In this document: one piece after another, positions 41,528 to 48,563 of the stretch
Numbering within the stretch: position 1 is the stretch's first letter
How the letters are laid out: each line of letters starts with the position of its first letter
NCBI RefSeq assembly: GCF_002554795.1
Contig: NZ_PDEQ01000005.1
Location: 310,001 to 374,000, forward strand
Reading direction: 5' to 3'
Source of the DNA: Longibacter salinarum
GTDB taxonomy: Bacteria > Bacteroidota > Rhodothermia > Rhodothermales > Salinibacteraceae
Length of the DNA: 64,000 nt
Translations under genes and position numbers: made by a program
Notes under the pieces: model-generated
Seen by the model: the letters and a program-made list of their open reading frames with translations, nothing else
Told to the model about the DNA's origin: nothing
Database searches by the model: none

Positions 41528-43489
41528 TTATTCACCCGTTACCATCGCGGTGGACGGTAGCGGCTCCCCGGGTTGCGGCGACTGCTTCTGCACAAGCCCC
41601 TGGCCGAAGAGCCGGACGTCGACGCCATGCTTCTGCAGCCAGTGCACCGCGTCGCGTGTGGTCAGCCCCCTCAGGTCGGGCATGGTGTCGCCACTCGCGT
41701 CGGCAAGACGAGCCTGCACGGTCGGCGGGGAGGTTTGTGAGGGAGCCGTCATGCGCTCAACATCTGCCGAGGCTGTGTCCGACTCTGCGACGATGTGGTC
41801 AACCACCTCGGGGAAGGTGCCCACCCAGCGGCGCGCAATGTTCTGGAAAATGGGGGCGGCGACAGCGCCGCCGTACATGCTGGTCTCCGGCTCGCCCACG
41901 ATGACGAGAAGAGCGATTTTCGGATCATCAGCCGGGAAGAACCCGACGAAGGACGCACGCGCCTGATCGCCAGAATATTTTCCGCCGCTCACCTTAAGCG
42001 CGGTGCCAGTCTTGCCTGCAATCTCAAGCCCACTCACCTGCGCAGCGGTCGCCGTCCCGGTCTCAACGGTCTTCTCGAAAGCGGGTCGCAACGCGTCGGT
42101 TGTCGATGGCTTCAGTGCGCGCCGAATGGAGTCCGGGCGCTGCGTCCAGAGTCGTTCGCCTGTGACGCTCCGCCGCTCCTTAACGACGTGCGGCTGCACG
42201 AGAAGTCCACCGTTCGCGAGAGCCGAGTAGGCGGCCAGAAGCTGGATCGGCGTCACTGACACCTCGTAGCCAATGCTCATAGATGTCAGCGACGTGCGGC
42301 TCCAATTCGCCGGCTTCTTCAGCGTCCCACCGACCTCGCCGGGCAGGTCGATCCAGGTCGGCTGACCGAACCCCAGGTTGCGCGCGTACTGGTAGAAAAT
42401 GCCTTCGTCAATTCGCGTAGCCGTTTTCGCCATGCCGACGTTACTCGACTTCGACAGCACCTCCGCGAAAGAGATCGTGCCGTAGGCCTTCACATCTTTC
42501 ATCGTGTACCCGTGGAAGACGGCCCACCCTTCGCCGGTCTCGACTGAGTCCTCGAGCGAGACGATGTCTTGCTCAACCGCCGCAGCGGCTCCCACAAGCT
42601 TGAACGTCGATCCAGGCTCGAACTGATCGGTAATGGACCGGTTGCGGCGGCGGGCGGATGTTGCGCGACCCGGATGGTTGGGGTCGTAGGTCGGCACGTT
42701 GGCCATAGCTAAAATCGCGCCTGTGTTCGGGTCCATCGCGATGGCCGTTCCCCACTTCGCCCCGCTCTCCTTCACGCCCCTCGCGAGTTCATCCTCGAGT
42801 GCAGCCTGCCGGACGAGGTCGATCGTCAGCACCACGTTCTGTCCGTGTTTCGGCTTGACGACGGTACCGCCCACGAACGCCTTGATGCGCCCGCGCCGAT
42901 CACGCTTTACGGCGTGCCAGCCCGGTTCGCCCGTGAGGAAGTCATCGTACTGAAGCTCGACGCCCGAGCGTCCCGTGCCGTCGGTGTCGATATGCCCGAG
43001 CACGTGCGCCGCCGTTGTTCCGTAGTTGTAGCGGCGGGCGAAGCGTGGCGACAGGATCAGGCCCGGGACGTCCCATTCCTCAACGGTTTCGCGCTGCATC
43101 TCGTCGAGCCCGCGGTACAGCATCACATACTGTGGGCTGTAGCGTTCGGCCACCGTTGTCCGCAGCCGGCTCTCAGACATACCCGTGAGGTCGGCGAACT
43201 TGCGGTAGAACATCGCGCTTTTCTGCTCGAACCCGTCGATCGTGGGATCGAGCGCGACATCATACCGAGCGGTGTTGATAGCGAGGGCGCGCCCGGAGCG
43301 ATCGAGAATCGAGCCGCGCATGGCCGGAATTTCGACCGTCGACCGTGCCTGGTTCTGGCCGCGAGCCTTCAGCTCGGAGCCCTCCGTCAGGACGATCCAG
43401 CCCATCTGTGCCAGGACGAACAGGGGCACGACGCTCAGGAGCGTCAGCACCATGTACATCCGGGTCAGAATTTGATTTTTCGGCTTCAC
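41528..43489 (-). CDS. ftsI: Septal penicillin-binding protein FtsI with a PASTA domain
   Basis: 653 residues, GTG start. One N-terminal membrane helix (MVLTLLSVVPLFVLAQMGWIV), a PBP dimerisation domain (RGSILDRSGRALAINTARYDVALDP), and a transpeptidase domain with SxxK (GSTFKLVGAA, near residue 295), SxN (LSKSSNVGMAK) and KTGTA near residue 492. A C-terminal PASTA domain (MPDLRGLTTRDAVHWLQKHG) follows a Ser/Thr-rich spacer. Class B enzyme. Confidence 0.95.
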   Translation of the reverse strand: MKPKNQILTRMYMVLTLLSVVPLFVLAQMGWIVLTEGSELKARGQNQARSTVEIPAMRGSILDRSGRALAINTARYDVALDPTIDGFEQKSAMFYRKFADLTGMSESRLRTTVAERYSPQYVMLYRGLDEMQRETVEEWDVPGLILSPRFARRYNYGTTAAHVLGHIDTDGTGRSGVELQYDDFLTGEPGWHAVKRDRRGRIKAFVGGTVVKPKHGQNVVLTIDLVRQAALEDELARGVKESGAKWGTAIAMDPNTGAILAMANVPTYDPNHPGRATSARRRNRSITDQFEPGSTFKLVGAAAAVEQDIVSLEDSVETGEGWAVFHGYTMKDVKAYGTISFAEVLSKSSNVGMAKTATRIDEGIFYQYARNLGFGQPTWIDLPGEVGGTLKKPANWSRTSLTSMSIGYEVSVTPIQLLAAYSALANGGLLVQPHVVKERRSVTGERLWTQRPDSIRRALKPSTTDALRPAFEKTVETGTATAAQVSGLEIAGKTGTALKVSGGKYSGDQARASFVGFFPADDPKIALLVIVGEPETSMYGGAVAAPIFQNIARRWVGTFPEVVDHIVAESDTASADVERMTAPSQTSPPTVQARLADASGDTMPDLRGLTTRDAVHWLQKHGVDVRLFGQGLVQKQSPQPGEPLPSTAMVTGE

Positions 43490-43527
43490 GGGACGTGAGA
43501 GACAGAGTTACTAAAAAGGGGGCAGTG

Positions 43528-43977
43528 TTAGTCGGGGACGACGACCGTCCGACCCGTCGGCACGGACTCCCGGAGACCGAGCTCGCGAGCCCGATCGTAG
43601 ATGACGGATGGTCCCGTCGCGTGATCGAACTCGCCCTTCAATCGGTTATGCTTCAGGTGCAGCTTGTGGTTGACTCGCCGCGCCTCCTGCACGTCCATCA
43701 GCAGCTGCTGGGTCGCATGCACGTGGCCGACATATAGCGTAAACAGCGCCGCGACCACGAGCAGAAGTAGCCCAAACTTGACTGTCGAGACGTTCTCCAG
43801 AAAGGAGCCCTCATCTTGCGGCTCGTCCCGACGCCGGTTGGTCTTCGGCTCCAGGTCCGACCACGATGGCAATGCCGTGCCGTGACGCTGATACTGGCTC
43901 GGGCCGGAGCCTTTGCCTCGATCGCGGTTGGGCGACGCGTTGCTGGAAGGACGATTATTGCTGATGATGCGGTTCAT
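43528..43977 (-). CDS. ftsL: Cell division protein FtsL
   Basis: 149 residues from ATG 43977. A hydrophilic Asn/Arg/Ser-rich cytosolic part of about 65 residues, one membrane helix (VKFGLLLLVVAALFTLYVGHVHA) and a coiled-coil with RVNHKLHLKHNRLKGEFDHATGPSVIYDRARELGLRESVP, the FtsL pattern (leucine-zipper-like helix then GLR.. end). Bacteroidota often have this long N-terminal tail. Confidence 0.85.
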   Translation of the reverse strand: MNRIISNNRPSSNASPNRDRGKGSGPSQYQRHGTALPSWSDLEPKTNRRRDEPQDEGSFLENVSTVKFGLLLLVVAALFTLYVGHVHATQQLLMDVQEARRVNHKLHLKHNRLKGEFDHATGPSVIYDRARELGLRESVPTGRTVVVPD

Positions 43978-44048
43978 GGGAAAAGGAGGGGTTGGTCCTC
44001 CGATCGGCGGTCGTACGGGTACGGCGGCGCACGTCGCGCGCCGATAAA

Positions 44049-44528
44049 TCACGAGGCTCGTGGTACTCGCGGGGCGTTGCCCGGCCAGGCTTCAGCGGAG
44101 CGTTTTGAAAACAGTCGGGTGAGACGAGCGCGCACCTCCTCCGGCCGCAGCGGTTTCGCTACGAAGCCGTCGAAGCCGGCCCGTTCGGTTCGCTCCCGGT
44201 CGCCCGGCAGCGAGTGGTTCGTGATGGCGAGCATCGGTATCTGACGGTACGCGGCCCGAAAGCGGAGGCGCTTCAACACCGTCATGCCGGTAGCGTCTGG
44301 CAGGGAGAGGCTGATGAGCACCGCGTCGTAGGCCGTCTCCGTGGCCATGCGCACCGCATCCTCGGCGGTTCCGGCAACGTCCACATCTCCATCGTGCCGC
44401 AGCGCGTACTGCACTTGCAGGCGGGCCTCCGGATCGGGATCTACCACGAGAGTGACCGGCTGATCACCGGGGGCCGATTGTCGGGCGGTGCGCACGTGGC
44501 GCCAGAGGATGTCGGGGGCGTCCGTCAT
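44049..44528 (-). CDS. Receiver-domain protein lacking the phospho-acceptor Asp, within the dcw cluster
   Basis: 159 residues forming a single CheY-like fold: VTLVVDPDPEARLQVQYAL, AEDAVRMATETAYDAVLISLSLPDATGMTVLKRLR, PMLAITNHSLPGDRERTERAGFDGFVAKPLRPEEVRARL. The conserved Lys125 (AKP) and Thr103 are present, but the phosphorylated Asp (four residues before the LPD proline) is Ser73, and one of the acidic pair is replaced (VDPD instead of VDDD). No output domain. It lies between rsmH (56 bp) and ftsL (71 bp), where no receiver is normally found. Confidence 0.9.
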   Translation of the reverse strand: MTDAPDILWRHVRTARQSAPGDQPVTLVVDPDPEARLQVQYALRHDGDVDVAGTAEDAVRMATETAYDAVLISLSLPDATGMTVLKRLRFRAAYRQIPMLAITNHSLPGDRERTERAGFDGFVAKPLRPEEVRARLTRLFSKRSAEAWPGNAPRVPRAS

Positions 44529-44584
44529 GAGGGAGTCGCGTACAAGGGGTAAGGGTCTCAGTCAGCAGGTTGGGGAACGCGCGA

Positions 44585-45598
44585 TCACACCGACGGCACC
44601 GGCGTTCCGGCATCGTCCGCAGTTCGCTCCGCGATGCGGAGACGCGCGCTACGAGCACGAGGGTTGGACTGGACTTCTGCCTCGCCTGCCTCAATGGCCG
44701 AACGCGGAGATTCCTCGAACGGGGCGATCAGGGTGCCGTAGATGTCGCGAATGGGCTTCCCCTCGAAGTTGCCGTAGCGCAAAAACCGCTTCACGCGCCG
44801 GTCTTCGAGGCTGTGGTAGCTGATCACGGCGATGCGTCCGCCCTCGCGAATCACGTCGGCACTCTGCTCCAGCACATCCTCGAGCACGTCGAGCTCCGCG
44901 TTCACAGCAATCCGCAGGCCCTGAAAGACGCGAGCCAGGCTCTTTACCTCGTCGCGCTCCGGAACTGCCGAACGAACCGCATCGGCCAGGTCGTGCGTCG
45001 TCTCCAGCGGTCGTGCATCCACGATCGCCCGAGCGATCGGCCGGGATCGGCGCTCATCGCCGTAGTGGTAGATCACGTCAGCGATATCGCGCTGCGCCCA
45101 GTGGTTCACGATCTGATGCGCCGTGAGGCCGCCACGTGGATCCATCCGCATGTCGAGTGGGCCTTCGCGCTGGAAACTGAACCCGCGCTCGGGCACGTCG
45201 ATCTGGTGTGAGGACACGCCGAGATCCAGTAGGAGACCGTCGATCTCTTCGATTCCGATCTCTTCCAGAAGCGTCTGCAGCCGACCAAAATTTCCCTGCA
45301 CCGTGCGAAAACGCCCGGCCTCAATCTCATCTGCCAGGCGATCGCGCGCCGTCGCAAGGGCTTCGTCGTCCTGGTCGATCCCGATCACCACGCCCTCGGG
45401 CGCCAGAGCATCCAGGAGCGCCTCCGAGTGCCCGCCGCCGCCAAGCGTGGCGTCGACGTAGCAGCCGGAGGGATCCGTGATCAGGCGGTCGATCACCTCG
45501 TGTGAAAGAACAGGCGCGTGGTACTCCGTCGCGTATTTCAACGGGTCGGCGTCCGATTCAGAATCGGACGAGGGAGCGGGAGCATCGGAAGCAGTCAT
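44585..45598 (-). CDS. rsmH: 16S rRNA (cytosine(1402)-N4)-methyltransferase RsmH (MraW)
   Basis: 337 residues from ATG 45598. SAM-binding motif [55 protein letters not shown] and [16 protein letters not shown] are diagnostic. Second gene of the dcw cluster, 41 bp from mraZ. Confidence 0.96.
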
Positions 45599-45639
45599 CA
45601 GCAGGTACGTCGGGGGGCGAGGCGGCAAAACGGTATGGG

Positions 45640-46080
45640 TTACATTCCCATGACGCGCTCGGCCAGGGTTTCGTAATCGTCGGGCTGCTCGTTGAGATAG
45701 GCGTTGAAGCGGTCCGGGTCCCAGATTTCGACATGGTCGAACGCGCCAATGATGAGCGCCTTATCGTCGATAGCAGCATACTCGACGAGCGGCTTCGGAA
45801 TGCTGACCCGCCCCTGCCCATCCAGCGCGGCTTCATCCGCCCACATCATGATCGCGCGGACGAAGCCCCGGGCATCGGCGTTGAACATGTTCAGCCCGCC
45901 AATTTCATCCTCGATCTGCGTCCACTGATCCAGCGGATACAGGAAGATACATTCTTCGAACCCGCGCGTGATCGTGAAGGTGTTCTTCGCCTCCGGATTC
46001 AGCACGCTCCGCATCTTGGCCGGGATGGTGACCCGACCCTTGCTGTCAACGGAATATTCGGCCTGACCTTTAAAAACCAT
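45640..46080 (-). CDS. mraZ: Transcriptional regulator MraZ
   Basis: 146 residues, two SpoVT/AbrB-like (MraZ) repeats: [25 protein letters not shown] and [26 protein letters not shown]. MraZ represses its own dcw operon by binding tandem GTGG-like repeats, and such repeats lie upstream here. First gene of the cluster. Confidence 0.95.
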
Positions 46081-46202
46081 GGTTTCAGCCCCGAGTCGGG
46101 GTCGTCAGGCCGTCCGTCACCGCCGTTCGGCGAAGGGGCCCTCGGTGGACAACGTGAGCAACGGGCAAAAACTGGCGGGGTTAGGGAGCGAATGGGCACA
46201 TT

Positions 46203-46228
46203 CCCCACTTTTCCCCACGCGTGTCCAC
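46203..46228 (-). promoter_or_regulatory. MraZ operator: three direct repeats at 10-bp spacing
   Basis: On the minus strand GTGG(A), GTGGGG and GTGGGG start at 46228, 46218 and 46208, exactly 10 bp apart, about 130-150 bp upstream of mraZ. MraZ is known to bind several TGGG-type repeats with about one helical turn spacing. The repeats begin directly downstream of the candidate -10. Confidence 0.75.
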
Positions 46229-46256
46229 AAGGTACGGCATCAGGCTCCAATGTCAA
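46229..46256 (-). promoter_or_regulatory. Candidate dcw promoter
   Basis: TTGACA (46256-46251), a 16-bp gap, TACCTT (46234-46229), immediately before the MraZ repeats. The perfect -35 hexamer, the right strand and the overlap with the operator support it. Confidence 0.6.
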
Positions 46257-46356
46257 GGTATCACCCCCGTCTAGACTGATTATTTGAGCCAAAACCTCCA
46301 TGTCCAATCGATGTGCACATACTGTATTCATGGTAGCCCACCGTTCCCCGGCTCCA

Positions 46357-46407
46357 GTGGTGAAAATCTTTTCACCACGACAGGGACTTGAGTGAAAATG
46401 TTTTCAC
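46357..46407. promoter_or_regulatory. Tandem palindromes, probable operator
   Basis: Site 1: GTGGTGAAAA tc TTTTCACCAC (46357-46378), perfect 10-bp arms. Site 2: GTGAAAA tg TTTTCAC (46392-46407), perfect 7-bp arms. Centres are 32 bp apart, about three helical turns, so dimers would sit on one DNA face. It lies 280-330 bp upstream of mraZ and about 500 bp upstream of the LexA-like gene. Confidence 0.7.
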
Positions 46408-46910
46408 CATCATCTATCCTTGTTGGGCCTGAACGCACATATCAGCCGCTTTGGGCAGGCGCTATTCCCTGGGCTCTCATTGCGGGCCAAACGCTCTATT
46501 TACACCGGTTCGACGTTAAAATGTCGGTGTCTCCAACGGCTTCGATTCGCCGGACGCCCCCCTGCATAAAAACGATTGAACGTATTCCGTTGAGGAACTG
46601 TTTGGCGGATGGATCTCAAAAACGCAAGGTCGTTCCTGTCTAGTCGCAGGCCTGGCGGTGATCCGATGACACGTGTGCTATAGACACGGTGCGCGAAATG
46701 AACGAGTCGGGGGTGCGCAGGCGCCCCGAGGACCGACCGTCGGGTCGGGAGGTCCGCCCGTTTGGATGGCCGAAGGCTGTCCGCGAAATAGGTTCTGAAA
46801 CGTTTCTCTTGCCAACTCGGAGCCGCAGCGAGGACACGGGTTGGGCGATCCTGACGAGATCATTCGGAAAACGGATTATCCTTATTTAATCGAGTTTCAG
46901 CCCTCTATCG

Positions 46911-47198
46911 ATGAAAGACCGGCGCACGAAGCGCCAGAACGAGGCCTTCGAGTTCATCCAACGCTTCATGCGCAAGCAGAACATGCCGAGGACGCTCTCG
47001 GAGATCGGAGACGGCCTCGGCATCGCATCGACGAACGGCGTGTACAAGTTGCTGGAGGCGCTACGATCTAAGGGCTACATTGAGCGGGAGAAGCACACCG
47101 CGCGTGGACTCACGCTGATTGACGATGCTCCCGACCCGGTGATCGACGCGGGTAAAAATCCGCGGCTTCCCATTATTGACGAAGCGGAGAGTCACTGA
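46911..47198 (+). CDS. LexA-type winged-helix DNA-binding domain protein (N-terminal part)
   Basis: 95 residues. TKRQNEAFEFIQRFMRKQNM, PRTLSEIGDGLGIASTNGVY and KLLEALRSKGYIEREKHTAR match the LexA DNA-binding domain (three helices plus wing) over its length. The frame then stops at TGA (47196-47198). The next 350 bp, in the same frame, encode an S24-like domain (separate entry). As read, the product is a stand-alone DNA-binding domain without dimerisation domain. It is divergent from mraZ. Confidence 0.8.
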   Translation: MKDRRTKRQNEAFEFIQRFMRKQNMPRTLSEIGDGLGIASTNGVYKLLEALRSKGYIEREKHTARGLTLIDDAPDPVIDAGKNPRLPIIDEAESH

Positions 47199-47555
47199 CC
47201 GAAAGCGTTACGAAACCAACCGTCCGGTGTCCTTACGTTTGACCGTCGCCTGCTGGCATCTCACGCCCCAGCGGACTGTCTCCTCCTCCGTGTCGGCGAC
47301 GACGGCATGAATGGAGACGGCATTCGCAAAGGCGACCTGCTGATTGTCGCTGAGAGGCCAGTTGAGCGGATGGTGAACGGAGGTATCGCAGGCGTCGTCG
47401 TGCACAACCAGATCCTCGCCCGGCACTTCGAAATGGTCAACGACCGGGTTCATCTCCGCCCCGCCGGCCGGCACTACACCGAAGAGATGTTCTCCCCGCG
47501 CGACCCCGCCTGCAACGTCATCGGCCCCGTGCTGGCGCTCCTTCGCACGCTGTAA
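47199..47555 (+). pseudogene. LexA-like S24 (peptidase) domain, in frame after a stop, catalytic residues lost
   Basis: Reading on after the TGA gives TFDRRLLASHAPADCLLLRV, GDDGMNGDGIRKGDLLIVAE, then VVVHNQILARHFEMVNDRVHLRP and NVIGPVLALLRTL, the ordered strands of the LexA/UmuD domain. Where LexA has GDSM the sequence has DDGM (Ser replaced by Gly132) and where the catalytic Lys stands (TVKRL) it has LARHF (Arg171). Spacing of 39 residues is close to the 37 in E. coli LexA. No Ala-Gly cleavage site is visible in the linker. It could be translated by reinitiation at 47307, by readthrough, or not at all. Confidence 0.7.
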
Positions 47556-47657: not shown

Positions 47658-48563
47658 TCAACTTCCGCCTGCGGGAAAGATGCGCCGATTTTGGGATGTG
47701 GACTTGATTGACGAGATGGATTGAATCGGGTATCGTCGCGTGACTCCCTCTCGATCTTCCACGACGACGTCAAACCCGTCGACCGAGACGGAGGAACCCC
47801 GGACGGTCGGCGCGTCGTGGCGGTACACGATCACGCCACCGTCGGCCTCGACCCCGAAGCTCATCGAGGAGACCTCGGCGCCCGTGACGAGCTGAAGAGC
47901 CATCGACCGTGTGTATGCATTGATCTGGGCATGGGCGGTCGCGGTGTCGGAAAGATCTGTTGCCTGTAATCCCTGGGTTTGATTCCAGATGATCTCCGAG
48001 GTATTAGCATCGACCAGCGCCATGCTAGCGGTAAAGATGCGCGTCGGCCCCACCTTGAAAAGCCCGATAAACAGACCGGGGCCGGCCGCGCTGACGTCGA
48101 AGCCGACAGACGGAGAGAACGATACGCTGTCGAAGATCGACCGCTCCCAGCGCGCGGACTTCAGTAGCAGAAGATAGCGTGATCCCGTCGATTCCTGGAT
48201 AGCCTGGATCCGATCCTTGCGTAGCGGACGCGGCGCATCTTCTGCTGGAGCCGGCAGAAACAGGGAATCCATAGCCACTTGCGCCGTACTTGAACCGCCG
48301 CCGCGATACACACGAGCAGGCTGCCCAAGCGCATCCAGGTAGCGCATCGCTACCGACTCCAAAACGTCTTGATACTGCGTAACCCCGTCTTTCGCCTCTT
48401 CCGGAACGGGTGTTAGGACCGGGATGACCGTCCACGTTTTCCCGAGACTCGGTTTCACGTCGGTCCCCAGCTGCGGAGCGCTCGACGCACATGCGGACAG
48501 AACACTCACGCAGAGAACGACGCCAAGGACCCGGTACCGCAGAACACCTTCAAGAAAGGACAT
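47658..48563 (-). CDS. Lipoprotein of unknown function
   Basis: 301 residues. Lipobox VLSACASS near residue 25 after a hydrophobic segment. The middle (MRYLDALGQPARVYRGGGSS; TGSRYLLLLKSARWERS; RIFTASMALVDANTSEIIWNQTQGLQATDLSD) looks like the nucleotide-free Rossmann-like domain of periplasmic GNA1162/CsgG-type lipoproteins, in which ..V.A.T.EI.W.. is common, but this is only a resemblance. The C-terminus is beta-rich. Upstream of it, 102 bp away, is pyrG on the same strand. Confidence 0.7.
   Translation of the reverse strand: MSFLEGVLRYRVLGVVLCVSVLSACASSAPQLGTDVKPSLGKTWTVIPVLTPVPEEAKDGVTQYQDVLESVAMRYLDALGQPARVYRGGGSSTAQVAMDSLFLPAPAEDAPRPLRKDRIQAIQESTGSRYLLLLKSARWERSIFDSVSFSPSVGFDVSAAGPGLFIGLFKVGPTRIFTASMALVDANTSEIIWNQTQGLQATDLSDTATAHAQINAYTRSMALQLVTGAEVSSMSFGVEADGGVIVYRHDAPTVRGSSVSVDGFDVVVEDREGVTRRYPIQSISSIKSTSQNRRIFPAGGS

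Follow-up and report, generated by a model that had tools for sequence, protein, structure and literature searches.

The LexA-like gene at positions 46911-47555 of the window, the 64,000-nucleotide stretch of Longibacter salinarum DNA analysed here, appears from its sequence to be a stop-interrupted copy of a conserved, non-cleavable LexA relative that would control the division and cell-wall (dcw) cluster and its own gene. We put the probability of this explanation, a dcw- and self-regulating family of LexA descent whose copy here is relaxed and disabled by a stop, at about 0.68.

Translation of the plus strand gives 95 residues, an in-frame TGA and then, without a change of frame, 118 residues up to a TAA. 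The gene has three parts:

46911-47195, plus strand: N-terminal part of the LexA-like regulator, a winged helix (residues 1-72) and linker, ending at the TGA (translation, Pfam).
47196-47198, plus strand: in-frame TGA, not present in any orthologue found (translation, orthologue comparison).
47199-47555, plus strand: S24-type C-terminal domain without the Ser/Lys dyad (GDDGM, Arg), in the same frame, to the TAA (translation, Pfam, alignment).

Before the TGA, the frame matches Pfam LexA_DNA_bind (PF01726; E 2e-16, 59.8 bits against a cut-off of 23.7). Beyond it, the match is to Peptidase_S24 (PF00717; E 2e-9, 37.8 bits against 23.3). This bears out the order of winged helix, stop and S24 domain given in the original prediction. 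The LexA-like frame is not a product of chance, since stop-free orthologues found by searching this genome and its relatives match both halves (best 48-54% identity) and codon-position GC is coding-like on either side of the TGA. The N-terminal part is about 40-60% identical to orthologues, and its sole match among named genomes is a distant Armatimonadetes one. An Rfam search of the window gave no match. After the TGA, the same frame holds no start codon until the ATG at 47307, already within the S24 fold. The earlier suggestion that two subunits are made is not supported, for want of a usable restart.

The loss of the protease residues is a feature of the family. When the window protein is aligned to E. 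coli LexA, the nucleophile Ser119 is a glycine (Gly132, in GDDGM) and Lys156 is an arginine (Arg171). The Ala-Gly pair is absent at the cleavage place, both from the window protein and from the family. All three changes had been read correctly from the sequence alone. Gly and Arg replace the Ser-Lys dyad in the aligned orthologues too, and there is practically no variation in GDDGM or the Arg across the alignment. Because intact orthologues carry these residues, the changes are a family trait and not decay. The orthologues have no stop; they are neither all broken, as in a dying gene, nor of the GDSM and Lys type that would have marked an ordinary lexA. In a tree, the intact LexAs split from a Ser-less, mostly mraZ-linked group with support of 0.995. 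The window copy shares the DDGM motif and the Arg at the Lys place with this clade, and departs from its intact reading frame at the TGA. Three distant, mraZ-linked members of the order (L082, L083 and L084) read PDDSM, with Ser at the nucleophile place and Arg for Lys, possibly an intermediate or a reversion.

The gene is divergent from mraZ, as had been noted, and the neighbouring division genes are:

45640-46080, minus strand: mraZ, first gene of the dcw cluster and divergent neighbour (ORF list, locus comparison).
41528-45628, minus strand: mraW, ftsL and ftsI, the downstream dcw genes and presumed indirect targets (ORF list, locus comparison).

The LexA-like gene and mraZ lie head to head in 39 of the 39 loci where both can be read on one contig, and the window copy has the same arrangement. 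mraW, ftsL and ftsI follow mraZ wherever longer stretches were read. A profile match to the LexA-like gene (E 1e-20 or better) was found in 52 of the 114 genomes of the order and in none of the 10 genomes of the order without an mraZ match, some of which absences may be assembly gaps. Six genomes of the same family (G003, G004, G010, G022, G024 and G026) have neither an mraZ match nor the LexA-like gene, which could reflect joint loss or, again, gaps. Outside the order, in the wider phylum, all seven mraZ-linked relatives lack Ser and Lys, and none of the 11 LexAs that carry both residues has mraZ next to it within the stretch fetched. Two further Ser-less relatives, L154 and L160, have no mraZ within the stretch fetched. 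One genome of the comparison has two LexA-like copies, G013:C7 and G013:C111; the latter (L100) is head to head with mraZ and has no match to the usual operator. On the other side of the regulator is a lipoprotein-like gene (47658-48563), which G001 and G006 have kept in the same place with about 30% identity.

The intergenic region shared by the two genes holds candidate operators. From mraZ outward, the aligned regions contain a MraZ-box-like repeat, a TTGACA-like element and two palindromes, GGTGAAAANNTTTTCACC. MraZ boxes have been described upstream of dcw clusters (PMC8475190). The window elements are:

46201-46218, minus strand: MraZ-box-like direct repeat, GTGGGGAAAAGTGGGGAA read toward mraZ (intergenic alignment).
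46229-46306, minus strand: mraZ promoter region, with a conserved TTGACA-like element (46250-46255) and TACCTT (46229-46234), and a second sigma-70-like pair (46279-46306) (consensus match only).
46359-46376, no strand assigned: candidate operator 1, GGTGAAAATCTTTTCACC, 16 of 16 consensus positions (intergenic alignment, site scoring).
46391-46408, no strand assigned: candidate operator 2, AGTGAAAATGTTTTCACC, 15 of 16, 32 bp from operator 1 (intergenic alignment, site scoring).

With a site counted at 12/16 or better, GGTGAAAANNTTTTCACC is present in 33 of the 39 regions that have the gene, and 27 of the 39 have two sites. Among 19 regions without an intact gene, a single site at chance level occurs in one, and two sites in none. 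Fisher p for this co-occurrence is 5e-9 for at least one site and 1.5e-7 for two, the genomes being related and the trials not independent. The six genomes that have the gene without an operator match are mostly distant members. Spacing within pairs, of which the window has one, is mostly about 22, 32, 42 or 54 bp, close to whole helical turns. In scans of 24 whole genomes, strong paired sites were at the mraZ locus only, among the matches listed. Extra one-mismatch sites in this genome (G000), considered as a regulon beyond mraZ, all fall within coding genes and were dropped. Four of the seven mraZ-linked relatives outside the order have a different palindrome, TGAAC..GTTCA, which is also paired, 34 bp apart, and which resembles the Gram-positive LexA box. 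An altered but still doubled palindrome is the pattern that would be expected of a co-evolving regulator and operator.

From this co-occurrence we infer that the family protein binds the GGTGAAAANNTTTTCACC sites. Because operator 2 adjoins the place where the regulator's own promoter is expected, autorepression is likely. The candidate operators are some 50-100 bp further upstream than the mraZ promoter elements, so the effect on mraZ may have either sign. Family-wide loss of Ser and Lys, head-to-head linkage and the operator pair together lend good support to the original prediction that this LexA relative is non-cleavable and devoted to division or wall genes.

That the gene is instead an ordinary lexA running the SOS response is scarcely credible. 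The Pfam LexA domains do match, but the dyad and the cleavage site are missing across the family, and among the matches listed in the genome scans the operator pair is at mraZ only, with no operators at SOS genes. Moreover, the separate canonical lexA that the original prediction proposed to look for is present. This second LexA, on contig C10, has Ser, Lys and Ala-Gly and is likely the SOS repressor of this genome. The window protein also scores below the cut-off of the NCBIfam LexA equivalog TIGR00498 (89.5 bits against 110.95), which is a weak test because the second lexA falls short as well (101.6 bits).

The window copy differs from its relatives in several respects. The intergenic distance is 209-433 bp in the other loci and 830 bp here, because a repeat lies between the promoter and the start codon:

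46500-46878, no strand assigned: interspersed-repeat copy between the operators and the start codon (52 matches in the genome, best other copy 87%).

The repeat is about 380 bp long and occurs about 50 times in this genome, in full or in part; neither terminal inverted repeats nor target duplications are evident at the inserted copy. On a fixed tree built from MraZ, MraW, FtsI and FtsL, the terminal branch of the window protein is 2.8 times the reference (other tips, 0.3-1.6). It has changed at 12 of 62 near-invariant columns, where others have changed at 0-6 and the most distant row at 15. Acceleration is 1.7-fold in the winged helix and 2.9-fold in the C-terminal domain, a difference that leaves room for a lone DNA-binding domain.

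The nearest genome, that of a sister species (G001), preserves the order of mraZ (81%), lipoprotein gene and pyrG (95%), with neither the LexA-like gene nor the operators at the locus. In another family, a single-contig genome (G071, locus L067) holds a frameshifted wreck of the gene within the first 900 bp upstream of mraZ. The gene is intact in a genome of the same genus (G070), and the wreck is an independent decay. Loss of the regulator is thus a recurrent outcome.

The changes in the window copy also bear on the timing of the stop. About 110 excess replacements stand alongside one stop and no frameshift. A simple neutral simulation, with an assumed indel rate, found such an excess impossible without several stops and frameshifts. 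Therefore, the rapid change dates mostly from a time when the frame was still kept open, and the stop either arose late or is not real. The near-perfect operators and the coding-like composition past the TGA indicate that the regulator acted until recently or still does. The stop is then recent, an assembly error, or one that leaves a working DNA-binding domain.

As far as the sequences compared extend, the TGA is peculiar to this genome, with no stop in any orthologue found. Most likely this is a relaxed, recently disabled copy with a real, inactivating stop. After it we rank a sequencing or assembly error, then a domain acting alone and finally recoding. An error would mean a full-length, fast-evolving and working regulator, which we consider unlikely. 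The single stop with frame and codon bias intact afterwards would be explained, as would the near-perfect operators, and neutral decay long enough for the divergence would have given several stops and frameshifts. However, the assembly is of good quality (22 contigs, 99.76% complete), and the leader repeat, the accelerated branch and the loss in the sister species point to weakened selection. A little less probable again is that the 95-residue winged-helix fragment works alone, as a weaker, non-dimerising binder of four operator half-sites. Its winged helix is better kept than the rest, the recognition region STNGVYKLL is unchanged, the operators are kept and structures have been solved for the LexA DNA-binding domain in isolation (1lea/1leb). 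Yet the segment past the stop keeps a coding composition, which is unexpected if it has long been untranslated, and no truncated form occurs among the relatives.

Read-through or recoding of the TGA, which the open frame with intact S24 motifs past it might suggest, is very improbable. The position is variable in relatives and none has a stop there, and neighbouring genes end in TGA. Selenocysteine recoding was rejected, the genome having no tRNA-Sec above the family cut-off. From the earlier list of options for the TGA, decay is favoured, with a sequencing error and a lone DNA-binding domain as possible alternatives.

The family resembles known systems in part. Like the LexA of E. coli and B. 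subtilis (TIGR00498), its members join a winged helix to an S24 domain in that order and are associated with palindromic operators. Unlike them, they lack the Ser-Lys dyad and the Ala-Gly site, have a single predicted target locus, mraZ, and coexist with a dyad-bearing lexA. Synechocystis PCC 6803 LexA has likewise lost the nucleophilic Ser and the Ala-Gly site and is thought to have a non-SOS role (PMC3091678). There the Ser is Asp, whereas here Gly and Arg are found clade-wide, in a clade that is tied to the dcw cluster and coexists with a second, intact lexA. Non-canonical Bacteroidetes LexAs (PMC8565304) are S24 regulators of the same broad phylum that bind palindromes, as the window family is predicted to do, but their HTH is of phage type, their dyads are intact and they run SOS; neither mraZ nor Rhodothermus/Salinibacter relatives are mentioned in the text of that work. 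MraZ, and in E. coli PdhR (PMC3265435), regulate dcw at the mraZ promoter, where the LexA-like family would also act, but these proteins are unrelated to it. Literature naming LexA, mraZ and dcw, taken by title and abstract and with incomplete coverage, describes no such regulator. Ser-less LexA and S24 regulators in Bacteroidetes are known; what appears new is a LexA-derived, mraZ-linked regulator that is not an SOS LexA.

In the mechanism that we propose, LexA-derived, non-cleavable repressors would bind the two helically phased palindromes in the region shared with mraZ. This binding would control the dcw cluster and the regulator's own gene, while a lexA with an intact active site presumably handles SOS. 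In this genome the regulator would have slipped from strong selection, as the repeat in its leader and its unusually fast sequence change suggest, and the stop codon would remove the dimerisation domain. More tentatively, and with rather more doubt than belief, the family may be a non-SOS, single-locus dcw switch whose inactive protease pocket, where DDGM is almost invariant and the Arg invariant, now responds to a ligand or partner rather than to RecA. If so, expression of the division genes would answer to some signal sensed there.

Transcriptional control of dcw clusters is poorly understood beyond a few models. The family provides a clear example, open to testing, of a repressor of the SOS response that became devoted to division genes, with its self-cleavage lost, its operators narrowed to one locus and its gene kept with mraZ across much of the order and in families beyond. 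It also suggests that some database entries named lexA in these bacteria are unrelated to SOS. How such a regulator disappears, and its operators with it, would be seen in the window copy and in the G071 wreck.
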